Assembly (NCBI GenBank): GCA_030710605.1
Contig: CP092879.1
Location: forward strand, 44,087,151 to 44,151,150
DNA from: Cordylochernes scorpioides
Lineage: Eukaryota > Arthropoda > Arachnida > Pseudoscorpiones > Chernetidae
Direction: 5' to 3'
Length of the DNA stretch: 64,000 nucleotides
Positions 908 to 62,968 of this stretch are shown here, piece by piece (position 1 is the first letter of the stretch; each line of letters opens with the position of its first letter). Made by a program: the position numbers and the translations under genes. The notes below the pieces were generated by a model. The model was given only the letters and a program-made list of their open reading frames with translations, was not told the origin of the DNA and did no database searches.

Positions 908-1704
908 TTCTTATATTGTTATATTTAGAAATCTGAGAGAATTATCATTTCAACAGAAATAAAGGTGTGAAAGATCAGTGCATGGAGGGTGGTTATTTAG
1001 ATCATGGGGATTGGCCACATTCTTAGAGAGGACTCGCGCGCCAACTTTACATAATTTTTAAAGAAGGAATTATTAGAAACAACGAGGTTTACCGAAGAAA
1101 AAGATATATTTTATGTATATTTCAATCGGTATTTATATAATATATCGTTCAATCGATGATTTACTAAATAGGGGATAAATAAATTGAAATTAGGCTGTGC
1201 ATTAATAAAGATAATTTCGAAATGAAGATGCTTTATATAAGAAATAGAAGCGAATGCAAACTCCAAAAACTTTCAATAAACAACATTGGTTTATAAACCT
1301 ATAAAATAAAGTTCGTCTCTTCCATCAAAATAAACACTATAACAGCGCCATCTATTGATCGTCTCTGCAAACTAGCAGACTAAGATAGGAGATAAATCTA
1401 TAACACTAGTTTTGGCAAACTGAGGAACGTCCATTAGGAGACCATAGTTTCGGGCTAATGGCCCTCGTAGGCCCGGGACAGACTTTATTTTATGAGATCC
1501 ACAAGGGATCTAATGGAATCTTCACAATCACAAAGAGGTCTTTAGCTGGTAGAATGGCTAGGCCAAATCTATGGCCAAAATATAGATGGATATTTTTCCG
1601 GGAGGAAATTTATCTATAAAAAAATCACCTCTAGATAACTTTTATTTTAGCTTATATTTTTATCTATATTTAATTATAAGGCGATAACGAGTCATCTATA
1701 TATA
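908..1704. other. No gene; one ribozyme-like relic
   Basis: AT-rich DNA with no open frame of note. At 1448-1471 the minus strand reads a damaged hammerhead-like core: CCTACGA, stem GGGC/GCCC with loop cauua, then GAAA. One core base is missing, so it is a relic of the R2-type motif. Confidence 0.45.
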
Positions 1705-7985: not shown

Positions 7986-8318
7986 AAATAGAGTGAGTTT
8001 TATCAATTTTTGAGTGAAGATAAGAATTAATAAGAAAATATTAATATTTTTAAATGCTTCTCTATTTTTCAAGGTAACAATTGAGTTAACTTGAAGATAG
8101 AGGTTGCCTGGCCGGCATTGATAGTTGAGTGAAGAGGTAGAAAAAGGTCAATATGTAAATAATAAAATTTGGTCATAACACTATAAGATCGCGACGAAAA
8201 ATTAAGACTATTTAAAACTCAAATTGTGTCTTTATAGTAGATTCTTACATTGCTAACATTTAGCATATCTCAATTTATCTGTGAAAAATAGACACTTCGG
8301 CCAGTTAGAATTTTTTAT

Positions 8319-8363
8319 TTTCTCAACGTTTCGACAAAAATCTTTTGTCTTCGTCAGGAGAAA
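8319..8363 (-). ncRNA. Hammerhead ribozyme-like motif, R3 left arm
   Basis: Read on the minus strand: stem I strand TTTCTC, core CTGACGA, one extra A, stem II GACAAAA/TTTTGTC, core GAAA, stem III ACGT, cleavage triplet GTT, then GAGAAA, which pairs with TTTCTC (6 bp). The conserved positions of a type I hammerhead are all present. The differences from the classical form are the extra purine before stem II and a stem III that is a 4-nt palindrome, so it would need a dimer. Predicted cut is between 8325 and 8324. Confidence 0.6.
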
Positions 8364-8445
8364 TAAATAAAAATAAAACATTTGGCAATGCGATAAAAAA
8401 TAGAACAATTTTTAACTCCTTGCCAAATGCTTTATTTTTATTTAT

Positions 8446-8489
8446 TTCTCCTGAGGAAGACAAAAGATTTTTGTCGAAACGTTAAGAAA
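8446..8489 (+). ncRNA. Hammerhead ribozyme-like motif, R3 right arm
   Basis: Plus strand: TTTCTC, CTGAGGA (8451-8457), extra A, stem II GACAAAA/TTTTGTC, GAAA (8476-8479), CGTT, then AAGAAA. The core fits CTGANGA. The first pair of stem I is lost (C opposite A) compared with the left arm. Confidence 0.5.
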
Positions 8490-8700
8490 ATAAAAAATTC
8501 TAACTGGCCGAAGTGTCTATTTTTCTCAGAAAAATTGAGATATACTTATAATAAATGTTAGCAATATAAGAATTCACTATAACAACAGATTTTGAGTTTT
8601 AAATAGTCTTAATATTTCATCGCGATCTTATAGCATTATGACCAAATTTTACTATTTACATATTGACTTTTTTCTACCTCTTCACTCAACTATCACTATA

Positions 8701-11845: not shown

Positions 11846-12300
11846 ATTTCATAGATACAAATACTCTGCTAATTCGACCGCCAGAGGTCTCTCTTTCCCA
11901 ATAAAACCTCATTATTGTTGTTTCCCGATGGCTGGCTCAAATATTTTGTACATCATGTAATAATGTATATGGCCAATTATGGAATAATTAAAAATCAACG
12001 AGAATTGTTGATATTTATTCCGATAGATGGCGCAAGCCATCAGCAACTTTCAGTTGCACGATAAGGAGATGCCTTTTTCTTAAATTATGTAATAAGTTTT
12101 TCATTTTTTAGATTCTTACGCCTTAATCCGGGCAGTACATTAATCAAATTATGTTTTTTTTTAAATATATATATTCCATAAGTTCAATTAAAGCAATATC
12201 TGATCAAAACTATTTTTATTATTATTCTTTCAAGATTTTTAACCACGATTGCATTAACATAGTATAATCTTCAAGATGATAAAAAATCAACAGAAATATT
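11846..12300. repeat. Repeat R10 interrupted by small MITE R11
   Basis: Matches 20886-21225 (caaatactctg, aatcgaccg, ttgttgtttc, cgatggctggctcaaa, then aagattttaaccacga). The copy is split by about 124 bp (11963-12086) that is absent from the other copy. The insert is flanked by atgtaata on both sides (11955-11962, 12087-12094), an 8-bp duplication as made by hAT-type transposons. The insert resembles 25713-25832. Confidence 0.7.
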
Positions 12301-12486: not shown

Positions 12487-13030
12487 AACAGTCAAACAAG
12501 TCAAAGAAAGAGAGAGAGAGATATTTGAGATTTTAAATAATTCATTAACTACATACACAAGTCAATGGTAGTATAGATAAAATAAAATATATAAAAAAAG
12601 ATAATACAAAATATATAGTAAAAAGATAAAATAAAAGAGTAAACTATATACAGTTATTAAAAATAAAGAAGGCTAATCCTGACCAGCAGCACATGTGATT
12701 TTTAGATGGCAGAGCGCCATCTAGTGGAACAGAAATCAACTGCCTGTTTTATTTTTAATATCAACACCTGAACTTTTTTTTTTCTACTGTTTTTTCATAT
12801 ACAGTTATGTGAAGTCCAGGTGACTCCCCCAAAGACAAAGAGTCATTTTATACAGACCTTATACCGCAAGTACAAAATTAAAGAAATGAAGGGCATGGCT
12901 CATCAGTGATAAACCTTCTCAGAGGTGTGGCTAGCTTTATGGACTTTAAAATGGAGGTTTTACCACTAATAAGTCTCCCCATTTCAAAATTTATCTATTG
13001 AAGCATAAGGTCTGTAGAATTATATATATA
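12487..13030. repeat. R2 and R1 fragments
   Basis: 12665-12785 is the end of R2 (gagcacatgtg-like word, agatggcagagcgccatct, then aatatcaacacctga). 12890-13020 holds a degenerate R1 core (ggctcatcagtgataaacc). The rest is AT-rich with nothing recognised. Confidence 0.5.
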
Positions 13031-13037
13031 TATATCA

Positions 13038-13345
13038 AAAATAAAAAAGGCATTCCCTGACCAGGAGCACATGTGCTTTTTAGAAGGCAGAGCGCCATCT
13101 GGTGGAACAGAAATCAACTAAACATTGATTTAGCCTATTCCCTGATATTTGGCCAACCCAATTTTTTGATAAATCAAGAAAAGCCATCCACGAAGGCGTT
13201 TGTTCGCTGTTGGCGCTCGTCAACGTGGAGTAGGCTGTATCACTGCGACCAAAAAGATATTTGGTCCCAGAGGCTTCTTGAGAAACCAAGAAATGGGTAT
13301 TTAAGGCCAAACTTGCGTAAATACGCTTGAAAACAATAGAAAAAA
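13038..13345 (-). repeat. R2 repeat with decayed ribozyme motif
   Basis: R2 runs agcacatgtgct, agaaggcagagcgccatctg, gcctattccctgatatttgg, aagccatcca, then gggtatttaaggcc. The ribozyme position (13187-13229, minus) reads TTGACGA and GAACAAA, so two core blocks are mutated. Confidence 0.75.
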
Positions 13346-13659
13346 ATATATATTAAAATGAAAAATATGGGTAAATATTTCTAACTCTCTAGCTCAATAT
13401 ATTGGACGCTAAGTTAATAATGATATTTGAAATGTGTTGTCTTATTCTATGAATACTTCATCTACTAACAAATTAGAACTGATTTTCTATCAGACTATCT
13501 TCAATTTATATGTTAATTATCAATAAAAAAATACACCATGGCATAGTACTGTTGAATTTGGATATTTCAAAGCCCAAGGGACCAAAGGAAATTCGAATTA
13601 TCAAAAAATTCAAATTAAAAAGGTTTTGAATAAAAGGCTTAAAGGTCTAGGGAACAGAA
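13346..13659. other. No recognised feature
   Basis: AT-rich; nothing seen beyond short A/T runs. Confidence 0.35.
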
Positions 13660-14749: not shown

Positions 14750-14945
14750 ACACTTCGGTCAGTAAATATTTTTATTCTATCGACATTTCGACAAAACCTT
14801 TTTGTCGTTGTCAGGAAAAAAACAACAACAATTAAAGCAATTAGCATCATAAATACCAAATATATATTTATTATACCTTGCCAAATGTTCTAATTTTTAT
14901 TTTTTTCATGACGATAACAAAATATTTATGTTGAAACTTGATGTG
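14750..14945. repeat. R3 fragment
   Basis: Contains cacttcggtcag, cgacatttcgac and cgttgtcagg in order. On the minus strand the core reads CTGACAA rather than CTGANGA, so the ribozyme motif is damaged. Confidence 0.65.
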
Positions 14946-14994
14946 TTCCGTGATATTTATCCTACCCAATTTCTTGATAAAATCAAGAAGAGCC

Positions 14995-15038
14995 AATCAT
15001 GAACGAGTTTCGGGCTGTTGGCCCTCGTCAGCGTGGTT
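14995..15038 (-). ncRNA. Hammerhead-like motif in R2, weak stem I
   Basis: Minus strand: CACG, CTGACGA, stem II GGGC/GCCC with loop CAACA, GAAA, CTCGTT, then CATGATT. Both core boxes and stem II are intact, and stem III is AC/GT with loop TC. Stem I has mismatches. Stem II differs from the copies at 19412 and 50945 by a compensated change (GCGC/GCGC to GGGC/GCCC). Confidence 0.5.
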
Positions 15039-15333
15039 CAGTCTGTATCCTAAAGGAATGGAAATAGCTTTATTTACGGGGCTTCTAACCAAAATAAAAT
15101 TATTCTTTTAGCCCTAAAATGTATCCTAAAAAAATATTGGCCCAAGAAGCTTCCTGAGAAATCAATAAACAGGTATTTACAGCCAAATTTAAGTAAATAT
15201 GCTGTTCATGTGAAAAATTAAAAAAAAAGTATAAAAAAGATCAGGTGTTGATATCAAAAACACCACCACCAACAACAAAAAAGCATAAGCTGACTGCTTA
15301 TTTGATCATTTTATATGGCAGAGGGCCATCTAG

Positions 15334-15595
15334 TTGTTGTTGTCGTGTCCAATGAAGAGCCTCAGATGTCCCCATGCATCTTTATCACAGCAGCAGCAAT
15401 GTCCACTATCTTGGGCGTGTAAAGCTGCTGCTCTGGGTCTATTTCAATTATCTGCAAGGCTGAGGCCATTGCTGGACATGAGAATATGTGGGTAGGTGTT
15501 AATTCCACACCAGGACAAATGTTGCATGTCCTGTAGGTTCTTGTGCCATCTGAATGCATCGTCATTCCTTTATAGTGTTCTGTTCTAAGTCTTAG
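15334..15595 (-). mobile_element. LINE 3' fragment inside R2
   Basis: Flanked by atggcagagNgccatctag (15315-15333, 15596-15614; 19 bp, one mismatch). On the minus strand it encodes LRTEHYKGMTMHSD, then CNICPGVELTPTHIFSC, then QQLYTPKIVDIAAAV, then HGDI and stop, followed by gacacgacaacaacaa. This is the C-terminus of a LINE ORF with a CCHC finger. Same family as 22787, 39321 and 42697. Confidence 0.88.
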
Positions 15596-16059
15596 ATGGC
15601 AGAGCGCCATCTAGTGGAACAAATATAAGCCAAACTTTGACTTGTTCTGTGATATTTAATCAAACCAATTTCTTGATTAATCGAGAAAAGTCAACAACGA
15701 ACGCATTTCGGGCTGGTTGGCTCTTATTATCGTGATGTAGGCTGTGATGTGTAGTAATAATATTGTTTTTGAACACCAAAAATTCCCATCTATTTGAATT
15801 CTATCTTTAATACGTCATCGTCTAATCGATCAAAATTTTGAAACTCTTGCACACATTTGATGCTTGAAGCAACTACAAGACGTTTCTAAAAATTCGTGGA
15901 ATGGTCAAAAATAGAATATATAGTGATGTCAATATGAATAATAATAAATTAATATAATTTTCAAATTACTTCCGTGTCGTTTCTATACAGAGTTTCCATA
16001 GTTTCTACAATGATTCAAAAACTATTGAAAATCCTCCAATTTATTATTCACCTAAGACA

Positions 16060-18728: not shown

Positions 18729-19002
18729 TACATTGATATATTCCTCTTATAATAATGGTAATAATTTTTAAATAAATATACAAATTGTGAATATTCTTTT
18801 GGTTGGAAGAGCTATTTAAGATTACATTAAAAAACCAATAATAAAGGTAAAAAGAATTTCAATTAACTTTATTAAATATTTGGCAAAATTTTGAAGATCA
18901 ACGCTTCTTCAAGACTCTATCTTTCTCTTATTATTATATCAATTATTTTGAATATTTATATTTATGTGTGTGTGTTTATCATTATATAATCTTATTCACA
19001 AA

Positions 19003-19156
19003 AAAAGGTATGAGAATCCGGAACTCTTTTTAATTAATTGCATAAAGTAGCTTTCGGGCATGCCCTTCCTCAGGTTTTAAATTGCTGAGGAAGAACTTGC
19101 CCGAAAGCTACTTTATAAAAATATTAAAAAGAGTTTCAGCGTCTTATACCTTTTTG
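19003..19156. repeat. Foldback with hammerhead-like arms
   Basis: Inverted arms: aaaggtatgagaatccgga / aaagagt and complement. Inner arms read gtagctttcggg on the left and cccgaaagctac on the right. Each arm shows CTGAGGA, stem II, GAAA, GCTA. On the minus strand stem II is GGGC/GCCC. On the plus strand it is damaged (AGAACTTGCCC). Stem I pairing is weak. Confidence 0.65.
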
Positions 19157-19199: not shown

Positions 19200-19597
19200 T
19201 CATTCATATATATATGCTCGTGTGCTCGTGGTCAGGAAATGCCTTTTTATTTTAAATATCAACACCTGACCCACTTATCTTTTTTTTCTATTATTTTTTT
19301 TTTTATTTGTAAAGCGTATTTACGCAAATTTGGCCTTAAATACCCATTTCTTGATTTCTCAAGAAGCCTCTGGGACCAAAAATATTTTTGGTCGCAGTGG
19401 TTACAGCCTACTCCACGCTGACGAGCGCCAACAGCGCGAAACGCGTTCGTGGATGGCTTTTCTTGATTTATCAAGAAATTGGGTTGGCCAAATATCACGG
19501 AGCAAGTTAAATAAACGTTTAATTTATTTTTGCTCCACTAGATGGCGCTCTGCAATCTAAAAAGCACATGTGCTCGTGGTCAGGACATGCCTTTTTA

Positions 19598-19612
<15 letters not shown>
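19200..19612 (+). repeat. R2 repeat, near-complete copy
   Basis: Begins and ends with the same box gtgctcgtggtcagga followed by tgcctttttatttt. Between lie aatatcaacacctga, gcgtatttacgcaaat, the ribozyme, gggttggccaaatatc, and the box agatggcgctctgc. Other copies are at 13038, 14946, 38580, 50790 and, as fragments, at 12665, 49650 and 62290. No coding capacity. Confidence 0.85.
19412..19453 (+). ncRNA. Type I hammerhead ribozyme motif, all core positions present
   Basis: In order: stem I strand TCCACG (19412-19417), CTGACGA (19418-19424), stem II GCGC-caaca-GCGC (19425-19437), GAAA (19438-19441), stem III ACG/CGT as a palindrome (19441-19446), H17 T (19447), stem I strand CGTGGA (19448-19453), which pairs perfectly with TCCACG. 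Every conserved hammerhead position is met and the triplet is GTT. Predicted cut is between 19447 and 19448. The loop-less stem III suggests a dimeric form, as known for Penelope-like and retrozyme hammerheads. Activity is inferred. Confidence 0.8.
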
Positions 19613-22786: not shown

Positions 22787-22993
22787 AATGGCACAAGAAC
22801 CTACAGGACAATTGTCCTGGTGTGGAACTAACACCTACCCACATATTCTCATGCCCAGCAATAGCCGCAGCCTTGCAAAAATTTACTTGAACCCAGAACA
22901 GCAGCTTTACACACCCAAGATAGAGGACATTGCTGCTGCTGTGATAGAGATGTATGGAGACATCTGAGGCACTTCATTGGACACGATAACAAC
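22787..22993 (+). mobile_element. LINE 3' fragment with 13-bp TSD
   Basis: Flanked by aactacaagaaaa (22774-22786, 22994-23006). Carries the finger ELTPTHIFSC and the tail QQLYTPKIEDIAAAVIEM, and ends gacacgataacaac. Same family as 15334, 39321 and 42697; point changes disrupt the frame upstream. Confidence 0.88.
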
Positions 22994-23714
22994 AACTACA
23001 AGAAAACAAGACTTAATCCAAATAAACTAATGTGTGACTAGGGCTTCCAATCCCGGTACATATTTTCAATCCCGGGATTCGGGATTGCTTTTTTCTCGGA
23101 TATCCCGGGATTGAAAAACATTTTCGTCTTTCTACGCCAAGAGGTATATCGTTTCGTTTGTTATATTTTTATTTTTTAATTTTATATAATGCCAATGACG
23201 TGGCGCTTACTTCGACGAAAACAACCTGAAAGCCATATATTTTGCGCCTGCTTATGAACTAAATCATTGCCTTTGGGTTACAGTTTGAAATTATCTGTCA
23301 ATTACTGTACACACATCTAGAAAAAAAATAGTGTTCTTGGAACTCTTAGACCACATCTCTTAATGCAGTGTTGAGCAGTAATCCATTCAAAGTAATACAT
23401 TACCTTGTAATTACGATTAATTTGCAAAAAAAAATTAATTGCATTAGAATGTAAACATAATTACTCGTAATTCTATATATAATGATAGCAATTGTGATTA
23501 AAATAACTTGTAATTGTAATTATAGCAAATGTAATCTGATTATTTGCAATTGTGATTATAGAAAATGTAATCATTATTGCATTTTGCCCAACTATGTATT
23601 AATGTTTAGAAAGAAGAAAACACCGTTTTAAAAACCATGAATTACTTTATTTTAAGGATAAAAATTCAATTTAGAGAAAGATTTGAGCGTAGGAAAGATA
23701 ATTTGTCAAGAGTG

Positions 23715-25832: not shown

Positions 25833-26684
25833 TGCACCTTATCCCAGTACAATATCACATTTGTACTATTTTTCAAATATATAATCATAATTTTATATAT
25901 AGCTGTAATATACAGTCTGACAAAAATCCACGCGTTGATTCTTGTTGCTTAGATTTGCCTGTTGAAAAGCAAAATTTGCTCAAAACCTTGCAACAACTCA
26001 AAACATATGAAGAAATTATTTGCCTTAAAAAAGCTAGTTTTCCTTATATCGAATATATCTTTTAAAATATGATGTAGAAGCGTTTTTATATATTTATTTT
26101 AAAATATGAACAATTTAAAAAAGAAGAAGAGATTCGTCTTTTTCTTTTTAAAATAAAACAATTAAGTATTTTATTACTGCCTTAAAGCAATGATAGAAAT
26201 ATTGATAACATCTAGAACATCAGTGGTGAACGCTGGGTTTTAGGTATTGTATATTTTGTTGATATATTTTCATTAATACTATCACAAACATCTATTCATG
26301 AATCCTAAACACACTGAGACGAAGGACGGTCATTTTCAGGGTGTGAAATTTCCCAAGAGACTTTCGAAACCAGCCTAATAAATAACATTTCTCCATAATG
26401 AAATAAGAAAGATACAATAGTAATAAGATATATAGGGTATAATTAAACGTTGGCTGGAGAAAATAAGACTAAATTATAGGTAAGCCTCAAGTTCAAGGCA
26501 GGAGGACTCTAATCACCATCTTAATGACCGATCCTATCTTTGAAAGGAAGGAAATTTTCTTTTTAAATTATTCCCGACATTAAGTAAATAACCAAACGAG
26601 GAAGTTGGAGATCTTCTGGCGCTAGGGATGTTGGTGGCGGTCGTCATCGCGTTGGCCTCTCTAGGTAAGTCCCCGGTCACGACG
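25833..26684. other. No recognised feature
   Basis: AT-rich; no supported gene. Confidence 0.35.
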
Positions 26685-28570
26685 TCCGTAGGTCTGGCTG
26701 GGTAGTTCTCCGTCACTGCTCCGTACTTCTGTCTGGGTAGTCCTCGTCGTTTGTTCGTAGGTCTGTGTAATTCTCCGTCGTTGGTCCGTAGGTATGGCTG
26801 GGTAGTTCTCCGTCACTGCTCAGTATGTCTGGCTGGGTAGTTCTCCGTCACTGCTCCATACATCTGTCTCTGTAGGTTCTCCGTCGTTTGTCCGTACATC
26901 TGTCTGTGTAGGTTCTCTGTTGTTGGTCCGTACATCTGTATGTGTAGGTTCTCTGTTGTTGGTCCGTACATCTGTCTGTGTAGGTTCTCTGTTGTTGGTC
27001 CGTACATCTGTCTGTGTAGGGTTTCTGTTGTTGGTCCGTACATCTGTCTGTGTAGGTTCTCTGTTGTTGGTCCGTACATCTGTCTGTGTAGGTTCTCTGT
27101 CGTTGGTCCGTACATCTGTCTGTGTAGATACTTTGTCGTTGGTCTGTACATCTGTCTGTGTAGATACTTTGTCGTTGGTCTGTACATCTGTCTGTGTAGG
27201 TTTTCTGTCCTTGGTCCGTATATCTGTGCAGGTTCTCCGTCTTTAGTCCGTACATCTGTCTGTGTAAGTCTCTGTTGTTGGTCCGTACGTCTATGTGGGT
27301 AGTTCTCCGTCGTTGGTCCGTACATCTGTCTGTGTAGGTTCTCTGTTGTTGGTCCGTACATCTGTCTGTTTAGGTTTTATGTTGTTGGTCCGTACATCTG
27401 TCTGTGTAGGTTCTCTGTTGTTGGTCCGTACATCTGTCTATGTAGATTTTCCGTTGTTGGTCCGTACATCTGTGTAGGTTCTCTGTTGTTGGTCCGTACA
27501 TCTGTCTGTGTAGGTTCTCTGTCGTTGGTCCGTACATCTGTCTGTGTAGATTCTCTGTCGTTGGTCTGTACATCTGTCTGTGTAGGTTTTCTGTCCTTGG
27601 TCCGTACATCTGTGCAGGTTCTCCGTCTTTAGTCCGTACATCTGTCTATGTAAGTATCTTATGTTGGTCCGTACGTCTATGTGGGTAGTTCTCCGTCGTT
27701 GGTCCGTACATCTGTCTGTGTAGGTTTTCTGTTGTTGGTTCGTACATCTGTCTGTGTAGGGTTTCTGTTGTTGGTCCGTATATCTGTCTGTGTAGGTTCT
27801 CTGTTGTTGGTCCGTACATCTGTCTGTGTAGGTTCTCTGTTGTTGGTCCGTACATCTGTCTGTGTAGGTTCTCTGTTGTTGGTCCGTACATCTGTCTGTG
27901 TAGGTTCTCTGTTGTTGGTCCGTACATCTGTCTGTGTAGGTTCTCTGTCGTTGGTCCGTACATCTGTCTGTGTAGATTCTCTGTCGTTGGTCTGTACATC
28001 TGTCTGTGTAGGTTTTCTGTCCTTGGTCCGTACATCTGTGCAGGTTCTCCGTCTTTAGTCCGTACATCTGTCTGTGTAAGTCTCTTATGTTGGTCCGTAC
28101 GTCTATGTGGGTAGTTCTCCGTCGTTGGTCCGTACATCTGTCTGTGTAGGTTTTCTGTTGTTGGTTCGTACATCTGTCTGTGTAGGTTTTCTGTCGTTGG
28201 TCTGTACATTTGTCTGTGTAGGTTTTCTGTCCTTGGTTCGTACATCTGTGCAGGTTCTCCGTCTTTGGTCCGTACATCTGTCTGTGTAATTATCTGTTGT
28301 TAGTCCGTACGTCTATGTGGGTAGTTCTCCGTCGTTGGTCCGTACATCCTTTCGGGTAGATTCTCTGTGGTTGGTCCGTACATCTGTGTAGGTTCTTCGT
28401 CGTTAGACCATAAGTATATCTGTGTAAGTTTCCGTCGCTAAGAATGATCGGAAAGTTCTTTGGGTAGATTCTCTGTGTCTAGATAAGCACGTCTTTCTGG
28501 GCAAGTTCGTCGTGGTTAGGTCAGTATGTCTTCTTGGGTAGATATTTCTGTCTCTAAGTCCATTTGTGGA
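26685..28570. repeat. 36-bp minisatellite array with higher-order pattern
   Basis: About 1.9 kb of units near 36 bp, with words ggtccgtacatctgtctgtg and taggttctctgttgtt. The period is a multiple of three, so long frames stay open on both strands; on the minus strand the unit reads MYGPTTENLHRQ. Units of other length break the frames. A variant box gtacgtctatgtgggtag recurs at 27285, 27671, 28097 and 28307, showing block duplications of about 390-430 bp and a shorter one. Units decay toward 28570. I see no start, splice site or domain that would make this a gene. Confidence 0.92.
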
Positions 28571-28845
28571 GGTTGTCAATTTCTAGGTACATAGGAGTCT
28601 CTGGGTGGGTTTCCCCGTCGTCAAAGTAAATACCTGTAAATTCCCTTTTCTTACCCTGGCTAATTCTCTTAGTACGTTTAACTAAGCCTCTAAATATATA
28701 TCTACCGAATATCTCAGTCCTATTGTGTAGTTTATATTCTTCTCGAGATGACCTTTCCAATACACGCATTGCCAGGTGCATATTCTTTTCAGATCTATAA
28801 AAAGAGAGATTAAGAGGAACGTGGTAAGTTTCTTTATTAAGCAGT

Positions 28846-28884
28846 ATACGAGCTTTCGGACGTCAGCCGTCCTTCATCAGGTGA
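28846..28884 (-). ncRNA. Hammerhead ribozyme-like motif, left arm
   Basis: Mirror of the right-arm motif with the same core, stem II and stem III. Its stem I is shorter (CA against TG) because the bases that pair lie in the loop of the palindrome. Confidence 0.5.
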
Positions 28885-28889
28885 TAACC

Positions 28890-28928
28890 ATACCTGATGA
28901 AGGACGGCTGACGTCCGAAAGCTCGTAT
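28890..28928 (+). ncRNA. Hammerhead ribozyme-like motif, right arm
   Basis: Stem I strand ATAC (28890-28893), CTGATGA, extra A, stem II GGAC-ggctgac-GTCC, GAAA (28917-28920), GCTC, then GTAT (28925-28928), which pairs with ATAC. Stem III is AG/CT without loop and the triplet is CTC. Predicted cut is after 28924. Confidence 0.6.
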
Positions 28929-29014
28929 ACTGCTTAATAAAGAAACTTACCACGTTCCTCTTAATCTCTCTTTTTATATTCCAAACGTGGCTTATCATGT
29001 CTTTTCAGATCTAT

Positions 29015-36539: not shown

Positions 36540-38546
36540 CAACAACAACAACAAAAAGCCTTTATTGAGGACCTCTCGTCCTATATAGGATTCGCCAGTT
36601 TACAGAGTAATTGAAGAGAAGAGAACTAAGAATACAGAGAAAAACCTATATGTAGTAGGTATAGTATAGTATTTTATACAATTTGACTATATACAACAGC
36701 AGCAACAAGCCTTTTACTGGAATCAAAGTCCCATACAGGATTCGTCATTCTAATCCTGACATAGATTATTTGCATATAATTATTTACATCAATTAGATTG
36801 TGTATATAGCCTCCTCTTCTCCTCAGCCGTCTTCCAGAATTTGAACAACGCAAAAGCTCCAGCTCTGTTTCTCACCACCTCATTCAACAGGAGCCCCAAA
36901 GAGAGTCCCTCAAGGCCTATTTCACTGAGGAGCACTTCTCGTTCGTCTTTCAGCCCCATACATGAGAGTATATGGTGATGTAGCCCCGGCTCCATTCTTG
37001 TCCCGCAAATCTTGCATGTCCATCCATCTGTTCTAAATATTCTGGGGCGATCATCAGCAAAGAGCACCGAGAGGATTCTCAGTCCGGCAATACACCGTTT
37101 GACCCAGAGAGGGAAATCGCTGGACAGATAGTGTTCCGGTAACGGAGTTGAGCAGATATTTTTATAGTGGGGGTAAAGTCTTGAATTTATTATTCTTGTG
37201 TGATCCTTTTGCAGAGACTGGTCTATTGCAGTCCTGATCATGTAGGGAATTTCTCTTTGTAATGTTCTATAGTCTGTGTAGCAATTCAGCCATTGAAATC
37301 CGGTGTGTGTGTTGTTTAAAATACTAACTATACCTCCCGTGAAACCTATATATTTTTTCGTTGCGTTTGAGATTTCCCACAGCTGTGACAAGCAGAGCAG
37401 CGGCAGTCTAGTTTCACTTATTCCCAGCATTCTCAACCAAAACTTTAAGGTAAGTTTCAAGACTGTAACGCTGAGTGACACTCTTCCCAATTCTATCCTG
37501 AGCATGTATCCGGGGGTATATCTTGGTAGATTTAGATATCTTCGCATAAATGAATCCTGAATTTGATCAACAATTAATGTATGCTAATTTGCCCAAACAG
37601 GTGCCGCGTATAGCAGGGTTGATAAAACCATCGCGTCAAGAAGTTTCATAGAGGATTTAAGAGAGTTCATCTTCGACCTGGTCAGAATAGGCCATACCGC
37701 ACCACTGGCCGCGAGAGCTTTACCCTTGTAGTATAATGCGGCTTGCTTAAAAGAGTTTGTTGAGGTGAGTGGATATCCTAGATACATGTATCTTTCCGTG
37801 ACATTCAGTGTTTATTGTCCCCAATACCAATTATCGGATTTTGAGCGCTTCCCACCATTGCGAAATACCATTATTTTTGATTTGTTTTCGTTCAGCGTTA
37901 GCATATTTTCCTCAAAATATTTTCGTATCATATTGATTTTTAATTGCAAATTGTTCTTAGATTCGCCTATCAGTACAATATCATCTGCATATAGTAACAA
38001 ATGGATATTTCCATGCTTTGGCAGATAAATACCAGGTATATCCGAGCAGTCAAAAGTACTAATCAGGTCGTTAATAAAAGGTATGAATAAGTAAGGAGAT
38101 AGTGGTTCACCCTGTAACACTCCGGATTTTATTTTAATAAATTCAGTGAATGAATTGTTCCATCTCACCGCAGCTGTCATGTTTTCGTAGTAATTCTTAA
38201 GTAGATTTATAAATCGGAAATTCAATCCGATGTCTAACAGTTTTTTCCATAGGAGAGCTTGAGGCACCGTATCAAAAGCCTTTTTAAGATCAATAAAGAA
38301 AGCGTAGAACTTTCGTCTTTTACGTCTGAGTGTTAAAGGCATGAATGTTCTTTTCTGAAACCCGCTTGATTTTCCGGTATAATTGCTCTATTTTCGGTCC
38401 AGTTGCTTAGCCGTATTTTCAGTATTGATGAGAAAAGCTTAGCGAGGTTGCTTAGAAGTGCTATTCCCCGATAATTGTGAGGATTGTCGGCATCACCATT
38501 TTTAAAGATGGGATGTATAATTGTTTTGCACCAGGTTGTTGGAAAA
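36540..38546 (-). mobile_element. 5'-truncated LINE with 15-bp TSD
   Basis: Flanked by agcaaactatatata (36525-36539, 38547-38561). The 3' end carries caacaacaacaac and the hairpin AGGAC/GTCCT. A second tail-like unit (caacagcagcaac with its own hairpin) lies at 36690-36730, so the 3' UTR end is duplicated. Coding part: 36789-38546. Confidence 0.88.
36789..38546 (-). pseudogene. LINE reverse transcriptase, two stops and a deletion
   Basis: Reads from RT block 1 (NYRGIALLSNLAK, ENQAGFRKEHSC) to a deletion/frameshift near 38342, then FFIDLKKAFDTVP, SGVLQGEPLSPYLF, catalytic YADD, and GYPLTSTN. Stops interrupt at 37812-37814 (TAA) and 37584-37586 (TAG) without change of frame. The C-terminus has a finger CKICGTRMEPG-HHHILSC and ends at 36789. 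It is a paralogue of the 40254 element (for example NLPRYTPGYM against NLPRYIPGYI). It would prime cDNA synthesis on nicked target DNA; this copy is dead. Confidence 0.9.
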
Positions 38547-38579
38547 GCAAACTATATATATGAAAAAATTATAGAAAAA

Positions 38580-38955
38580 AAGTCAGGTGTTGATATTAAA
38601 AGTAAAAAGGGCATATCCTGACCAGGAGCATATGTGTTTTTTTAATTTTCACATGTTTAGCGTATTTACGCAAGTTTGACATTGAATACCCATTTCTTAG
38701 TTTCTCAAGAATCCTCTGGGACCAAATATTTTTTTGGACGCAGTGGTACAGCTTACTCCACGCTGAAGAACGCCAACCGCGCGAACGCGTTCGTGGATGG
38801 CTTTTCTTGATTTATCAAGAAATTGGGTTAGCCGAATATCAGGGAACAGGCTAAATCAATGTTTAGTTGATTTCTGTTCCACTAGATGGCGCTCTGCCAT
38901 CTAAAAAGCACATGTGCTCCTGGTCAGGACATACATTTTTTTATTATTTTTAATA
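38580..38955 (+). repeat. R2 repeat with damaged ribozyme
   Basis: R2 from caggtgttgatatt to cctggtcaggac. The ribozyme position (38757-38797) keeps TCCACG/CGTGGA and CTGAAGA, but one A of GAAA is missing and stem II has a mismatch. Confidence 0.8.
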
Positions 38956-38999
38956 TATGATACAACTATAAAAATATTTCCGTACATTGAAATGTAATA

Positions 39000-39320: not shown

Positions 39321-39583
39321 AACAAGACTTAGAACAAAACACTATAAAGGAATGGCAATACATCCAGATGAGACAAGAACCTATAAGTCATGCAACAACT
39401 GTTCTGGTGTGGAACTAACACCTACTCACATATTCTCATGCCCAGCAATGGCCGCAGCCTTGCAGAAAATTGACATGGACCCAGAGCAGCAGCTTTACAC
39501 ACCCAAGATAGTGGACATTGCTGCTGCTGTAATAGAGATGCATGGAGATATCTTAGGCTCTTCTTTGGACACGACAACAACAA
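39321..39583 (+). mobile_element. LINE 3' fragment, copy A
   Basis: Encodes RLRTKHYKGMAIHPDE, CNNCSGVELTPTHIFSC, QQLYTPKIVDIAAAV, HGDILGSSLDTTTT and ends gacacgacaacaacaa. It starts at aacaagacttagaac, the same point as copy B at 42697, with which it is nearly identical. No clear TSD. Confidence 0.85.
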
Positions 39584-40253: not shown

Positions 40254-41962
40254 ACAAACAAACAAAACAGCTTTATTAGGGCATCTTGCCCTGTACAGAT
40301 TCGCCTTGGAATTACTGACAATATTCAACACAAGAGAAAAAGGAGAGATGGAGTATTTACAGTTAAGGTATGGCAAATATTTTTATTGTGCCCCTGTTCT
40401 TCTCTCTTCCACGAGTGCAATTTTATTTACAACCGATTTTGGTAGTTGAACAGTTCTATTGCCCAACTTTTCTTATCTGAAACAGTTTTTATTGTCTTTA
40501 ATGAGTTCAAATGCGGTCTAGGAAGACTTTTCAGGATCTTTTTTCTCTCACCTTCCAGCTCCCCGCACTCAGCAGTAAAATGGTATATTTCATCGGTTAT
40601 CTGACTTCCGCATAACCTACAGTACAAATCTTCTTTCTTAATTACGTAGATATGATTTTCTTTGATCAATGTTGATATTATCCTGATCTGTGCAATAAAA
40701 CTCACTAAAGCTGAGGACAGATTGTATGAAAAATAATGTTCTGGAATGAATGAATCATAAAGTAACCTATAGTTTGAGTATGTTTTCTTAAGAGACAATT
40801 TTGCCAGATCTTGTTGCAATAGCTGTTCAATTTTTATTTTTAGTATATTCGGAAGTTCGATCTGTATGTCATCATAATTTAACCTAAAGTTTAGCCGTGT
40901 GAGTCCACAATGATTGATGATATCCATGATATTTTTACAGAATCCTATAGGTTTTTTTGTCATTAAGGAAATTTCCTTCAATCTATTCCAGCATAGCTTA
41001 GGTAATCTATTTTCTTCCATTTCCTGTAATCTAATGAAATATTTCAGAATTAGTTTGATCGTTGTAAAAGTCAGAGATATTCTGCCTGTTTCCAACCTTA
41101 CAATATACCCCGGTATATATCTTGGCAGATTCAGAAAGTTTTTGATAAACGTATTCTGTATTTGGTCTATAATATCGGTATTGTCCCAAGCCCACACAGG
41201 GGCCGCATAGAGTAGTATTGATTTAATAACTGAGTCAAATAAATTCAGTGCAACTTTTAATGAATTAATTTTTTCCCTTTTTATCAGTCTAATAGTTGCA
41301 TTTATTGCCGTATTTGCTTTGGCTTTATAAAAGAGGGCTACCTTTTTGCTATTATTAGTGGTAGTGAATGGAAATCCCAAATACATAATATTGGAAGCAA
41401 CAGTCAGTGGGATGTCCCCCCAGTACCAGTTTTCGTGTCTTGCCGGTCTTCCTCCGTTTCTAAATACCATCACCTTGGACTTATTTTCATTTAAAACTAA
41501 TTTGTTATTGTCCAGATAAGACTTTAGTAAATTGATTTTAGTTTGTAGGTTAATTTTAGATTCTCCAATTATGGCTATGTCATCCGCATACATAAGTAGG
41601 TGTAAAACGCCAAAATCAGGGAGATGAAATCCTGTAAGTGCTGATTTATTATAAAGTTCTATTAGGTCGGCCATATATAATATAAATAAAAGTGGGGAAA
41701 GTGATTCTCCCTGCAACACTCCAGAATTAATTTTCACATTACTTGAATATTGCCCTTTCCATCGGATAGTAATCTTAGCTTCTTGGTAAAAGTTTTTTAT
41801 CGGCATTACAAATTTATTGCTAATGCCCATTTTATGCAATTTTTGCCAAAGTAAATCATGTGGTACTGTGTCGAAAGCTTTAGTCAAATCGACGAAGAAG
41901 ACATATAGCTTGCCTCGTTTTCTTCTCAAAGATAATTGGATGAGTGAATTCAATAGTAGTAA
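40254..41962 (-). mobile_element. 5'-truncated LINE with 11-bp TSD
   Basis: Flanked by gccctttttca (40243-40253, 41963-41973). The 3' end reads aataaagctg followed by (TTTG/TTG) tail, with a perfect hairpin AGGGC-aaga-TGCCCT just before. Confidence 0.92.
40427..41962 (-). CDS. LINE reverse transcriptase ORF, 3' part, uninterrupted
   Basis: About 511 codons without a stop, from mid-RT to the natural end. RT landmarks: VFFVDLTKAFDTVPHDLLW (first catalytic Asp), SGVLQGESLSPLLF, MYADDIAI (catalytic YADD), LNENKSKVMVFRNGG and MYLGFPF. A long thumb/linker follows, then the finger CRLCGSQITDEIYHFTAEC (CX2CX9HX4C) and the stop at 40427. The endonuclease and first RT blocks were lost by 5' truncation at insertion. 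The Met near 41974 lies in flanking DNA and is not a real start. The open frame implies a young copy; it would need an active source to have moved. Clade not assigned. Confidence 0.9.
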   Translation of the reverse strand, partial: LLLLNSLIQLSLRRKRGKLYVFFVDLTKAFDTVPHDLLWQKLHKMGISNKFVMPIKNFYQEAKITIRWKGQYSSNVKINSGVLQGESLSPLLFILYMADLIELYNKSALTGFHLPDFGVLHLLMYADDIAIIGESKINLQTKINLLKSYLDNNKLVLNENKSKVMVFRNGGRPARHENWYWGDIPLTVASNIMYLGFPFTTTNNSKKVALFYKAKANTAINATIRLIKREKINSLKVALNLFDSVIKSILLYAAPVWAWDNTDIIDQIQNTFIKNFLNLPRYIPGYIVRLETGRISLTFTTIKLILKYFIRLQEMEENRLPKLCWNRLKEISLMTKKPIGFCKNIMDIINHCGLTRLNFRLNYDDIQIELPNILKIKIEQLLQQDLAKLSLKKTYSNYRLLYDSFIPEHYFSYNLSSALVSFIAQIRIISTLIKENHIYVIKKEDLYCRLCGSQITDEIYHFTAECGELEGERKKILKSLPRPHLNSLKTIKTVSDKKSWAIELFNYQNRL

Positions 41963-41989
41963 GCCCTTTTTCATATAAACATATAGAAA

Positions 41990-42235
41990 TTATTTCTGTG
42001 AAAAATAGACACTTCGGCCAGTTACAGTTTTTTTATTTTCTTAACGATTCAACAAAAATCTTTTGTCTTCGTCAGGAGAAACAAATAAAAATAAAGCATT
42101 AGGCAAGGCGTTAAAAATTCCGAATTATTTATTTTTATCAATTTATCCTGACGAAGACAAAAATCTTTGTTGAAACATTGAGAAAATAAAAAAAAAACCT
42201 TTAACTGGCCGAAGTGTCTATTTTTCACAGAAATA
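41990..42235. repeat. R3 foldback
   Basis: Arms start ctgtgaaaaatagacacttc and end with the complement, about 245 bp. Both ribozyme positions are damaged: GAATC on the left (minus), and CTGACGA with GAAACATT and poor stems on the right (plus). Confidence 0.8.
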
Positions 42236-42696: not shown

Positions 42697-42959
42697 AACA
42701 AGACTTAGAACAAAACACTATAAAGGAATGGCAATACATCCAGATGACACAAGAACCTATAGGTCATGCAACAACTGTTCTGGTGTGGAACTAACACCTA
42801 CTCACATATTCTCATGCCCAGCAATGGCCGCAGCCTTGCAGAAAATTGACATGGACCCAGAGCAGCAGCTTTACACACCCAAGATAGTGGACATTGCTGC
42901 TGCTGTAATAGAGATGCATGGAGATATCTTAGGCTCTTCTTTGGACACGACAACAACAA
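42697..42959 (+). mobile_element. LINE 3' fragment, copy B
   Basis: Same start, same end and almost the same sequence as 39321-39583; I count two differences in the first 90 bases. Flanks differ, so these are separate insertions or copies of a unit with a fixed 5' end. Confidence 0.85.
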
Positions 42960-44104: not shown

Positions 44105-44700
44105 TTATCCCAATTTGTCATTTGGTTAATTTCCATATTCACTATTTTACCTTTAAAATTTTGTCAAAATTGTCATTTTGTTAGTTTCCATATCCTCAAT
44201 TTTACCTTTATACACAAAGTTTTGTCAAATTTGTCATTTGGGTTGTTTTCGTATCCCCTATTTTACCTTTCCACACTATATTTGTCAAAATTTGTCATTT
44301 GGTTAGGTTCTATAGCCACTATTTTACCTTTACACCCAAGGTTTTGTCAAAATTTGTCATTCGGGCTGTTCTCGTATCCTCTATTTTACCTTTTCACATT
44401 ATATTTGTCAAAATTTGTCATTTGGTTAGTTTCCATAGCCACTATTTAACCTTTAGAATAATTTTAACGCTTTGCAAATTGTTTTATTTTTAATTCTCCT
44501 GGCAAAGACAAAATCTTTTTGTTGAAACGTTCAGAAAATAAAACTTTAACTGGCCGAAATGTCTATTTTTTAAGAATATAAATGCCGCCCAGGCAACCTC
44601 CATATTCAATATTTACAAACAAAGTTTTGTCAAAAATTGTCATTCGGTAGTTTCCATATCCACTATTTTATCTTTACACACAATGTTTTAGCATCATATA
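44105..44700 (+). repeat. Minisatellite of about 60 bp, interrupted by R3 DNA
   Basis: Six units of about 60 bp at 44105-44470 (ttttgtcaaaatttgtcat, ttggttagtttccata, actattttacctttacac), and one or two more at 44605-44690. Between them (44475-44600) lies an R3 fragment with CTGGCAA, GAAACGTT, aactggccgaaatgtc and a family end. The R3 piece inserted into the array. Confidence 0.82.
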
Positions 44701-47734: not shown

Positions 47735-47882
47735 TTCAAATTAAAGACACTTCGGCCAGTAAATCCTTTTTAGACGTTTCGACAAAAATCGTTTGTCCTC
47801 GTCAGGAGCGAACAGATTTACTGGCCGAAGTATCTTTAATTTGAAGAACTATGAATTCCGGCCAGGCAGCCTTAATCTTTAG
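47735..47882 (-). repeat. R3 short copy with ribozyme-like core
   Basis: Outer stem ggccagtaaatc (47754-47765) pairs perfectly with gatttactggcc (47815-47826). Inside, the minus strand reads CTC, CTGACGA, stem GACAAA/TTTGTC, GAAACGTC. The inner three pairs of stem I (CTC/GAG) are lost. Ends with the family terminus ccggccaggcagcc. Confidence 0.75.
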
Positions 47883-49649: not shown

Positions 49650-49830
49650 TAATAAGAACAAAATTGACATAGCCTGACCACTCACGTGAACATTTTTAGA
49701 TGGCAGAGCGCCATCTACAGAAACAAAAATCAACTATATGACGCTCTGCCATCTAAAATGTTCATTTGGCGTTCAGGATATGCCTTATTTGTTTTTACTA
49801 TCAACATCTGACCAATTTTCTATTTTTTAA
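49650..49830. repeat. R2 end fragments in inverted order
   Basis: agatggcagagcgccatcta on the left and acgctctgccatctaaaatg on the right, with tatcaacatctgacc beyond. No ribozyme core. Confidence 0.65.
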
Positions 49831-50785
49831 TTCTATGTTTTCTTCCCTTCGTAAAACGCATAGATATAAATAATTGAATAGGAGGGCGTAACACTAGTTT
49901 TGTTAAATTTGCACAAAGGCCTACACCTGTTTACCATAATTACATACTAAGAACCTCAAAGTACAAGGACAGCTTCGATTTCGTAACGTCCAACGGAAGT
50001 AATTGTGAAATCGGCCAAATCTGTAAATAAGAAAAGGTATTTTACAGATATTTCACACACACAAAACGGACTTTTTTACTTATAAATACAACTGACCTCG
50101 TCAAAGCAAGATTCGAGACATTTTTAATATCCCCGACAAATTTCTATCTTAGGGAATTCCCATCAACCGTTCCTTGTGATTATCTCTTATCCCTGAAGGA
50201 TTTTCCTTCTTTGAAGGAAGCATAACTTTCCTTGTTATAAATTTGACTACATTTATCGTGAGTTTCTTCGTGATTACTAATACATATTCCATTTATATAT
50301 AGAGGTACACAAATAGGTGAATACTTTAAACTAAACAATATCTTCTTCTTTCTTATTTCCACACTGGGTGAAGTAACATGCATCTGCCTTTGTCATTAAG
50401 ACTGGGAGCACTACTCAGTGGCAGATTGCAAATTGAGGATGATCTTGAAAAAAAAAAACTTAAGAAAAATTTTAATTAATGATACAGAAGGAGTCTATTT
50501 AAATGCCCTTTCATGAATAAACAAGGCTATTTTTATGCACTTATATTCCTGTTACGGTTCCAGAAAATTGATCATTTACATGTCTTTATGTTCTTATTAT
50601 GAACATTTTGTGAAACTATTCTAAATTGTTTATAGGTGATGCAAATTTTTTGGTCGCCAGTATATATACATTGTTGTTGTTGTTTTTTTTTTATAAAGTA
50701 TATTTTCACATAATAATGTATTTTTGGGTTGGGGAGATGTATTTAATCAATTCAGATATCTACCTTATATGGTAGCAATATTCTG
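49831..50785. other. No recognised feature
   Basis: AT-rich; a short (TTG)n run lies at 50675-50690. No supported gene. Confidence 0.35.
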
Positions 50786-50789
50786 AAAT

Positions 50790-51185
50790 ATTAAAAATAA
50801 AAGAGGCATATTCTCTGACCAGGAGCACATGTGCTTTTCAGAAGGCAGAGCGCCATCTGGTGGAACAGAAATCAACTAAGCATTGATTTAGCCTGTTTCC
50901 TGATATTTGGCCAACCCAATTTCTTGATAAATCAAGAAAAGCCATCCACGAACGCGTTTCGCGCTGTTGGCGCTCGTCAGCGTGGAGTAGGCTGTACCAC
51001 TACGACCAAAAAATATTTTGGTCCCAGTGGCTTCTTGAGAAACCAAGAAATGGGTATTTAAGGCCAAATTTGCGTAAATACGATTAAAATGTGAAAAAAT
51101 AATAGAAAAAAAAATTAGGTGTTGATATTAAAAATAAAAGAGGCATATCCTGACCAGGAGCACATATGCTTTTCAGAAGGCAGAT
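50790..51185 (-). repeat. R2 repeat, near-complete copy
   Basis: Contains gaggcatattctctgacc, gcacatgtgct, the gcagagcgccatctg box, the ribozyme, gggtatttaaggccaaattt, then a second start of the end box (51135-51185). Nearly the reverse complement of 19200-19612. Confidence 0.85.
50945..50986 (-). ncRNA. Type I hammerhead ribozyme motif, identical to 19412-19453
   Basis: The 42 nt are identical to the motif at 19412-19453: TCCACG, CTGACGA, GCGC-caaca-GCGC, GAAA, CGCGTT, CGTGGA. Flanking R2 sequence differs at several places while the motif does not. Predicted cut is between 50951 and 50950 on the minus strand. Confidence 0.8.
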
Positions 51186-56887: not shown

Positions 56888-57721
56888 ATGGCGACCGAAG
56901 AGGAGTTAACGAGCGGCGGCGGATCGGAACCCTACCATGAAGCCTGCAAGGTAAGCATTAAAATACCTCCATTTTGGACAGATAAACCTGAAATTTGGTT
57001 TTATCAAGTTGAAGCTCAATTTAACATAAATGCGATAACATCCGAAGAAACAAAGTTTAATTACTTAATTGCACAACTTGAGCCAAAATACATTGAAAAT
57101 ATTTGGGACATAATTACTCTCGATAGTAAATTTAAATACACTGAATCTAAAACACGCCTTTTAAATATATTTAAAGATAGTGAAAGTGTTCGAATTAAAA
57201 AACTTATCTCAGGAATAGAACTTGGAAATATGAAACCAAGTCAATTGTTACAAAAATTGAGATCTTTAGCCACTAGTGATATATCTTCTAATTTAATTAA
57301 GACCTTATGGCTAGAGAAATTACCTGACTCAATGAGAAACATATTGCTTGTAAGTGATGAAGATGTGACAAAATTAGCATCAATGGCGGATAAGATTATG
57401 GACATGACTTTTTCTCCTGATGTCTGTGAGGCTAGTTCTTCACAAACCTCTCATAATGTTATGGAGAACCTGTTAGAAAAAATATCTTCACTTGAAAAAC
57501 AAGTAGCTGAAATTAACCTGTCAAGATCAAGGGCATCATTTAGAACTCAACGCCAACGATCTAGATCCAGTAGCCGAATCCGTAGAAAATACGATCCAAA
57601 TGGCAGCTTTTGTTATTACCACTTTCGATTTGGAGCTCGTTGTATTCCTGAAAAATGCAAGCCTCCTTGCAAGTGGGTAATAAATAAGACGAATAATCAG
57701 GAAAACTCCATGCTGCCGTAG
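56888..57721 (+). CDS. gag: Gag polyprotein, 277 aa
   Basis: Forms the cytoplasmic particle that packages element RNA. The first Met is at 56888, 68 nt after the LTR. Residues 20-150 match the arthropod gypsy gag fold (IPPFWTDKPEIWFYQVEAQF, then ETKFNYLIAQL, then PSQLLQKLRSLA, then LWLEKLPDSMRNIL). Residues 195-215 look coiled-coil forming (ENLLEKISSLEKQVAEI). An Arg/Ser-rich RNA-binding stretch follows, then an atypical zinc finger (CYYHFRFGARC, then CKPPCKW). The frame ends TAG at 57721. Pol is open in the -1 frame from about 57692, so the two overlap by about 30 nt, which fits -1 frameshifting. Confidence 0.92.
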   Translation: MATEEELTSGGGSEPYHEACKVSIKIPPFWTDKPEIWFYQVEAQFNINAITSEETKFNYLIAQLEPKYIENIWDIITLDSKFKYTESKTRLLNIFKDSESVRIKKLISGIELGNMKPSQLLQKLRSLATSDISSNLIKTLWLEKLPDSMRNILLVSDEDVTKLASMADKIMDMTFSPDVCEASSSQTSHNVMENLLEKISSLEKQVAEINLSRSRASFRTQRQRSRSSSRIRRKYDPNGSFCYYHFRFGARCIPEKCKPPCKWVINKTNNQENSMLP

Positions 57722-62199: not shown

Positions 62200-62390
62200 T
62201 TGTATGACACTACATAATGTACATGACGCCTCTGCTACCGCTGCAGAGTTTGGTGGAGAATCGCCAGCGGGTCTTCAGCGACACCAAGCTAAAATCAATG
62301 TTTAATTGATTTTTTTTTCCACTATACAGCGGTCTTTTATTTCTGAAAAGCACATGTGCTCCTGGTTAGGATATGCCCTTTTTATTTTTA
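62200..62390 (+). repeat. R2 3' part
   Basis: Contains aaaatcaatgtttaattgat, gaaaagcacatgtgctcctg, ttaggatatgccctttttat. The ribozyme region is replaced by unrelated sequence. Confidence 0.65.
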
Positions 62391-62394
62391 ATAT

Positions 62395-62820
62395 CACACA
62401 CACACACAAAGCCTTTATTAAGACGTTAGTCTTATACAGATTCTCCATACAAGGTGCAATAACAGGAAAAGAGCAGCACAGGAAACCAGTAGTTCCGCAA
62501 CTATATACAATTATTAGTAATATAAGGAAAAGTAAGATTTAATATGAAAGGTCGACGCCATCGCCTCAAGTCTTCAATTCCATAAGCGCGGAGCAGAAAT
62601 AGGGACTAAGTTATTTAGTTCGCCATAAATATAGCATCCAGACACAAAAAGGAGGTTTACTCCAGCACAGCCATCCCTATCACCAGCTCCGCAATCTCAT
62701 CGTCGACCAACACGATGGCCCCTCGATGTTTCGTCATCATTATGAGGTGTAAGAACAATAGCTTCCAAGTTCTCTTTTCTCCCTCTTTACACCTACTGCC
62801 TTGTAAAAATTATATATTAT
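62395..62820 (-). mobile_element. LINE 3' end, minus strand
   Basis: In minus orientation ends aataaaggctttgtgtg with hairpin AAGAC-taa-CGTCTT before it. Upstream an ORF end reads VLVDDEIAELVIGMAVLE and stops near 62660. Part of the TTG-tailed LINE group. No TSD identified. Confidence 0.65.
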
Positions 62821-62968
62821 TTTTAATATCAACACCTGAATGTTTTTTTTTTACATATATGTATGATTATCTTTTTAAAATAGTGAAAACTGTGCACTTT
62901 TGTATGTATCGACACGATGTCAATAAAATTATTTTAATTGTCAATTGCCTAAAGGAGAATATATACAG

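Follow-up and report, generated by a model that had tools for sequence, protein, structure and literature searches.

The locus raises two questions: whether a short motif inside a repeat family called R2 is a hammerhead ribozyme, and, if it is, what kind of element carries it and which enzyme copies that element. The motif is a 42-nt hammerhead sequence at 19412-19453 on the plus strand of the window, by which we mean the whole 64-kb stretch of DNA that was analysed. The earlier note had placed an identical sequence at 50945-50986, and both positions were borne out, the second copy lying on the minus strand and agreeing letter for letter with the first.

The hammerhead motif and its copies

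The two identical sequences belong to R2 copies A and B, and both possess the CUGANGA core, stem II, GAA, the A15.1-U16.1 pair, an NUH cut triplet and an open-ended stem I. We scanned the 64-kb window for type I folds, defined by a CTGANGA core, a stem II of at least 3 bp, GAA, A15.1/U16.1, H17 and a stem I of at least 4 bp, and obtained two matches, which were copies A and B only. The same fold scan gave one match in total among 60 dinucleotide shuffles of the window, and none among the 60 shuffles when a stem II of at least 4 bp and a stem I of at least 5 bp were demanded. A first generic pattern (CTGATGA with fixed spacing) had matched once against 1.9 matches expected, which is nothing beyond chance; this pattern was blind to R2 because the R2 core reads CTGACGA. 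The cut triplet in R2 is GUU, a weaker cut triplet than GUC.

An Infernal search against Rfam, named as a check in the earlier note, gave a divided result. At gathering score no hammerhead was found in the window, but a permissive search matched RF02275 (Hammerhead_HH9) to both A and B with 27.9 bits and an E value of 0.0083, which already counts all 4227 families. The 27.9 bits stand against an HH9 gathering cut-off of 52, which is the curator's and not a defining feature of the fold. HH9, the best Rfam match, is built like R2 in its outer stem I, UAC internal loop and 4-bp stem II, whereas stem III is much shorter in R2. Two elements absent from the earlier note fall within the alignment, an outer helix of stem I (AGCC/GGCU) and a UAC/U internal loop; the predicted fold of the R2 hammerhead contains this internal loop together with a stem II pentaloop.

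A ribozyme is carried by six R2 copies (A to F) and is intact in two of them, A and B. The right and left ends of the copies were read on a probe of the R2 end region, on which site 1 is position 73-74, after TTTTTAATAT, and site 2 is position 106, at TTTTTTC. The R2 features of the window are as follows.

19412-19453, plus strand: ribozyme A, intact type I hammerhead with 6-bp stem I, 4-bp stem II and A[CGCG]U stem III
Between 19447 and 19448, plus strand: predicted cut of ribozyme A, after GUU
19402-19460, plus strand: ribozyme A with outer stem I helix AGCC/GGCU and internal loop UAC/U, from the Rfam HH9 alignment
50945-50986, minus strand: ribozyme B, intact and identical to A, from the fold scan and Rfam HH9
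19217-19607, plus strand: R2 copy A, 1.1 units (unit 348 bp), right end at site 1
19221-19259 and 19569-19607, plus strand: 39-bp direct repeat of copy A
50788-51184, minus strand: R2 copy B, 1.2 units (unit 335 bp), direct repeat of ~60 bp, right end at site 1
13032-13352, minus strand: R2 copy C, 5'-truncated, right end at site 1
13180-13239, minus strand: damaged ribozyme of copy C
38556-38960, plus strand: R2 copy D including 8-bp flanking repeats, with an inverted 5' tip (38564-38642) and a direct body ending at site 1
38747-38804, plus strand: damaged ribozyme of copy D
14944-15334, minus strand: R2 copy E, downstream unit of a tandem dimer, with a 76-bp nested insert
14989-15047, minus strand: ribozyme of copy E, stem II GGGC/GCCC
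15592-15746, minus strand: R2 copy F, upstream part of the same dimer as E, with a decayed ribozyme at 15687-15746
15334-15591, minus strand: repeat fragment between F and E, probably the 3' part of a LINE, not part of R2
12646-12808, minus strand: R2 fragment H including a 12-bp target-site duplication, inverted tip to site 2, right end at site 1
62341-62860, plus strand: R2 fragment G, with a 420-bp insert, running past site 1 and aligned to probe position 93
49650-49831, plus strand: R2 fragment I, a diverged head-to-head copy whose arms align as far as probe positions 73 and 102

A model derived from the six ribozymes scored 71-91 bits on these same copies and 15.7 bits on the next match in the window. 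In copy C, C3 is changed, the closing pair of stem II is broken and one base is inserted; copy D has lost one A of GAAA and has one broken stem II pair; copy F has lost the core. At the copy E ribozyme Rfam gave no hammerhead even at E 10. Pattern searches for R2 elsewhere yielded no match in viral or genome contig collections, which is expected for an animal repeat.

The earlier note had stressed that the motifs were identical although their surroundings had diverged. This is true for A and B, with 42/42 identical positions in the motif against 102/115 in the left and 104/120 in the right flank, but the identical block is ~96 nt long. The remaining five pairs that can be formed from A-D are 83-90% identical over the motif and 83-96% over the flanks, roughly the same range. 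Conservation of the motif as proof of selection was rejected, as over A-D the motif is not clearly better kept than its flanks. A different kind of evidence comes from paired changes. The second pair of stem II is C-G in A-D and G-C in E, with A-C in F, as if decayed from G-C, and the outer stem I pair is U-A in A-D and A-U in E and F (15687-15746). The stem II change that the earlier note had described in a third copy (14996-15037, minus strand; copy E) is real and compensated, but this copy is damaged, with two C-A mismatches in stem I and a stem III that is not palindromic. Two subfamilies, A-D and E-F, differ by two compensated pairs. In a count over 15 pairs in five distinct rows (75 cells), 89.3% of the cells were paired against 25-47% with slid partners. 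The covariation score was reached by 6/500 shuffles and the paired percentage by 19/500, the number of cells changed on both sides by 57/500, that of further pair types by 146/500 and that of pairs changed on both sides by 203/500. As these few rows are related to one another and also served to define the structure, we regard this covariation as support for the fold and not as proof.

The R2 unit, its relic dimer and its stem III

The unit of R2 has a GC content of 38% in copy A and 40% in copy B. Both copies exceed one unit, so that their ends repeat 39 bp and ~60 bp, respectively. The claim of the earlier note that R2 has no coding capacity agrees with its open reading frames, the longest from an ATG being 60 aa in copy A and 35 aa in copy B.

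Copies E and F are arranged head to tail, both on the minus strand, at a distance of 699 bp from ribozyme to ribozyme. The 15334-15591 insert between them, a repeat also found at 39326-39583, at 42702-42959 and in part at 22788-22995, has on either side a copy of a 23-bp R2 stretch, the two differing at two positions, and copy E holds a 76-bp insert flanked by TTTAGGATACA. After removal of the two inserts, each together with one copy of its flanking repeat (281 + 76 bp), the E-F spacing is 342 bp, which is one unit, and the locus without its inserts aligned to a doubled B unit in one piece over 462 columns (73% identity, E 5.7e-73). This spacing and the continuous alignment therefore indicate that R2 once existed as a tandem with two ribozymes, the form needed to release unit-length RNA. 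The relic dimer E-F is the one case of tandem units with a ribozyme each, copies A, B, C and D having one ribozyme each, and no intact tandem pair was found within the window. Within the window R2 seems to be represented by dead ends: the intact ribozymes of A and B are single and the sole tandem pair is damaged. Neither the tandem dimer nor the insertion ends described below were part of the earlier note.

A dimeric form is also suggested by stem III. The palindrome ACGCGU is present in A, B and D, and a single change separates each of C, E and F from it. The palindromic stem III of the earlier note stands as far as this palindrome is concerned, but the lone ribozyme has no stem III beyond a single A-U pair (A15.1-U16.1) closing a CGCG tetraloop. 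As ACGCGU cannot fold on itself any further than this, it points to a ribozyme of the dimer type. The Amex1 hammerhead of the axolotl has the same stem III arrangement and, according to excerpts of PMC7229834 and PMC6155905, cuts poorly alone and well in dimers. For R2, a predicted energy of -45.1 kcal/mol for the double hammerhead compares with twice -18.9 kcal/mol for the singles; left unconstrained, the dimer prefers a different shape (-47.7 kcal/mol), and in the most stable monomer fold (-20.3 kcal/mol) part of the ribozyme core is paired. The circular unit folds far better than 60 shuffles (z -7.1 for A and -6.6 for B), and forcing the active hammerhead within it costs 1.4 kcal/mol in both A and B. 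The reverse complement of the unit is equally stable (z -9.2 and -6.6), so the stability of the unit reflects inverted repeats, and the stable fold was rejected as strand-specific evidence.

In unit size, GC content, absence of an ORF, tandem arrangement and duplication, the sequence of R2 fits the features of metazoan non-LTR retrozymes. These elements, as excerpted from Cervera and de la Pena 2020 (PMC7229834), have the same type I hammerhead in a non-coding unit of 150-450 bp, the same low GC (<50%), head-to-tail units and self-paired RNA, and those of the axolotl/newt type share the one-pair stem III with a palindromic tetraloop. Their target duplications of >4 bp find a counterpart in R2 fragment H (12 bp). 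R2 is unlike metazoan retrozymes in that most copies comprise 1.1-1.2 units with one ribozyme, beside one old interrupted dimer, and in its GUU cut triplet; its stem III is weak, whereas in the same excerpts of PMC7229834 most invertebrate retrozymes reportedly have a stable one. Plant LTR retrozymes, in the passages available from PMC4918200, are likewise non-autonomous hammerhead elements with a proposed movement via RNA circles, but unlike R2 they carry a type III hammerhead in LTRs, a primer-binding site and 4-bp duplications. R2 was accordingly rejected as a plant LTR retrozyme, given its type I topology and the 12-bp duplication in H against type III and 4 bp. An assignment to DNA-transposon MITEs was also rejected, as there are no inverted ends in A, B and C.

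The identification made in the earlier note, a type I hammerhead in a retrozyme-like repeat, is thus supported by the fold, by covariation among few sequences, by unit size and low GC, by the lack of a long ORF and by the relic dimer, and it is the best reading of the motif at the level of sequence.

Insertion ends and the copying machinery

Site 1 is the right end of A, B, C, D and H, five of the seven copies in which a right end could be read. Fragment G, once the 420-bp insert between exact 15-bp repeats is allowed for, continues past site 1 and is aligned to position 93, near but short of site 2, so that G itself is no marker of site 2; in the diverged fragment I the inverted arm is aligned to 73 and the direct arm to 102. 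No right end is available from E, which is truncated at 14944, or from F, which continues into E. Both D and H start with an inverted head-to-head tip, which ends at TTTTTTC (site 2, 106) in H and at or within 2 nt of it in D. The two sites lie ~32 nt apart, CAACACC stands just after site 1, and the targets are AT-rich. The insert in G (62397-62816) has its exact 15-bp repeats right at site 1. A similarity to the R2 end region is seen at 12010-12085 on the plus strand (AGATGGCGC...AGGAGATGCCTTTTT), where the surroundings gave no ribozyme match; this is perhaps another element with the end signal of R2.

Fragment H is flanked by an exact 12-bp duplication (12646-12657 and 12797-12808), a word that occurs nowhere else in the window, and 29/2000 random placements scored as high. 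The 8-bp duplication of D is weak, with 77/2000 random placements as high and the word occurring 11 times in the window. The search for duplications returned AT repeats only for A and C, nothing better than 6 bp for B, none that was clear for G and none for I.

In all six copies with a ribozyme the cut site is internal. These internal cut sites, together with the extension of A and B past one unit, indicate that the template was a multimeric or circular RNA and not a linear cut monomer. Private variants common to both ends of one copy (two columns in A and one in B, with three other pairs also sharing one) lean weakly towards one template molecule or a circular template.

Ends with these traits are known from Penelope-like elements. 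In excerpts of PMC3846280 and PMC11167929 these elements share with R2 the partial tandem, the head-to-head inverted end, the tail of 30-40 nt on one arm, an AC-rich start region, AT-rich targets and short duplications in some copies. The combination of partial tandem, inverted end and a 30-40 nt tail between two start sites was seen in D and H, a small sample. For Adineta vaga, the available part of PMC3846280 describes some Penelope-like copies with an inverted pLTR and a 31-bp tail on one pLTR, duplications of 8-10 bp in some copies and none in others, and inverted ends which its authors explain by self-priming. Excerpts of PMC11167929 report that the purified Anolis Penelope protein cleaves both strands of AT-rich DNA. 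Its reverse transcription begins within an AC-rich loop, at two internal sites, and the distance between these sites accounts for the tail; mutating the hammerhead left insertion in vitro unchanged, and there were no reads at the cut site. R2 fits this Penelope behaviour in the ~32-nt spacing of its two sites, in the CAACACC beside site 1, in its AT-rich targets and in its head-to-head tips. R2 is unlike Penelope-like elements in lacking an ORF and in having a hammerhead with an outer stem I helix, and we did not file it among them, as it has no ORF with RT and GIY-YIG. Within the literature excerpts consulted, no description of Penelope-like insertion ends was found for retrozymes. Nine ORFs of the window were scanned, seven of which match RT, integrase or transposase families and two none; a GIY-YIG domain was found in none of the nine.

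As a whole, the explanation that we consider probable is that R2 is a non-coding, non-autonomous element of the metazoan non-LTR retrozyme type, copied by a Penelope-like RT. Read-through RNA of tandem units would be cut by the hammerheads, two neighbouring ribozymes pairing through the ACGCGU palindrome into a double hammerhead, which we propose since a lone ribozyme all but lacks stem III. The resulting monomers would then be closed by the host tRNA ligase, an enzyme given for the closure of RNA circles in an excerpt of PMC7229834. On the multi-unit or circular RNA, as the ends suggest, a Penelope-like RT may start at fixed internal sites ~32 nt apart, beside the AC-rich stretch; it would prime at AT-rich nicks and might run past one unit, leaving short direct repeats, and head-to-head inverted tips would result from priming, or self-priming, at the other end as well. 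As inverted ends and a tail of 30-40 nt are seen in Penelope-like elements, a Penelope-like enzyme may mobilise R2. The more specific claim, that the R2 junctions record Penelope-like machinery copying a hammerhead retrozyme from circular or multimeric RNA with a closed cut site, is tentative, and we would give it slightly less than an even chance.

R2 might instead stem from an autonomous Penelope-like element of the same genome, either as its solo pseudo-LTR or as a derivative without an ORF, and the hammerhead would then belong to the pLTR of that element. The ends, inverted tips and tail do resemble Penelope pLTR anatomy (PMC3846280, in excerpt), the weak stem III is as in pLTR ribozymes (PMC7761336, in excerpt), and the window itself holds the palindromic element at 28784-29014, with its minimal hammerhead-like motifs, its tail and its 15-bp duplication. 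The R2 hammerhead, however, combines a pentaloop on a 4-bp stem II with a stem I that is paired in its outer part and carries an internal loop, the relic dimer is spaced by one unit length without an ORF between its ribozymes, and there is no Penelope ORF among the window ORFs scanned, so that we consider this origin unlikely. A further possibility is that a LINE mobilises R2 by ordinary target-primed reverse transcription and that the inverted tips reflect LINE-style twin priming. RTs matching LINE chains are present at 40427-41989 and, by Pfam, at 37812-38387, and 5' truncation, duplications and inversions also occur with LINEs. This possibility appears quite improbable, as the LINEs of the window end by eye in TTG- or TTTG-rich tails while R2 ends at TTTTTAATAT or near TTTTTTC without such a tail, and twin priming does not predict the same second site for the inverted tip in both clear cases, D and H. 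The LINE beside copy D was rejected as the autonomous partner of R2, as by eye it appears flanked by its own repeat TATATATAGTTTGC.

A chance motif, or a non-functional sequence inside a structured repeat, could explain the Rfam score below gathering and the damage in four of the six copies, but hardly a core with stems found twice in the window against one match in 60 shuffles, nor two compensated pairs that separate two subfamilies; we give this very little credence.

Other elements of the window and what the R2 ends may tell

The window contains further hammerhead-like sequences outside R2, one of them in an element with a duplication of its own.

28784-29014, no strand assigned: separate element, a palindrome of two minimal hammerhead-like motifs, including an exact 15-bp target-site duplication

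The 201-bp element proper (28799-28999) consists of a near-perfect 177-bp palindrome and a 24-nt tail on one arm, and we read it as a candidate Penelope-type insertion, inverted and pLTR-like. Its motifs carry an extra A after CTGATGA; one viroid hammerhead has an extra A after CTGANGA. A second repeat family, partly in inverted pairs, occurs at 8181-8633, 41980-42231, 44462-44608, 47745-47851, 63171-63283 and 14750-14941, and its copies at 8357, 8451, 42148, 47805 and 63243 show a minimal hammerhead-like CTGANGA in which an additional purine precedes stem II. At 19002-19155, immediately left of copy A, lies an imperfect palindrome with arms 80% identical and two CTGAGGAAG..CCGAAAGCTA motifs, by its letters another minimal hammerhead-like pair. 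The sequence at 1426-1487 (minus strand; 15.7 bits, E 0.036) is possibly the relic of a different type I hammerhead with two core changes. By eye it shows an outer stem GTCC/GGAC, stem II GGGC/GCCC, stem III AC/GT with a tetraloop, and a GTC triplet, and it lies ~70 bp upstream of AGATGGCGCT, as in R2. The window also holds mariner, LINE and Gypsy content, including a Gypsy-type polyprotein ORF at 57697-60516 (939 aa stop to stop, with RT, RNase H and integrase), and a 36-bp minisatellite of ~48 copies at 26684-28387. The mariner, LINE and Gypsy sequences, taken with the type of retrozyme, suggest an animal genome.

For the enzyme that moves animal retrozymes, the candidates in excerpts of PMC7229834, PMC7761336 and PMC11722881 are LINEs or Penelope-like elements, on the grounds that hammerheads are shared, that copies stand in tandem and that the elements co-occur. 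In the open-licence literature searched, which does not include two original Penelope-hammerhead papers, we found no report that used insertion ends to settle this enzyme. While the kind of element, a metazoan non-LTR retrozyme, is already known, the insertion ends of R2 are what is new here. If the end pattern of these few R2 copies holds genome-wide, the question of the enzyme would become a simple count of junctions, and the RNA template would be shown to have had a closed ribozyme site. If the Penelope reading is true, the junctions themselves would mark the partnership between retrozyme and Penelope.
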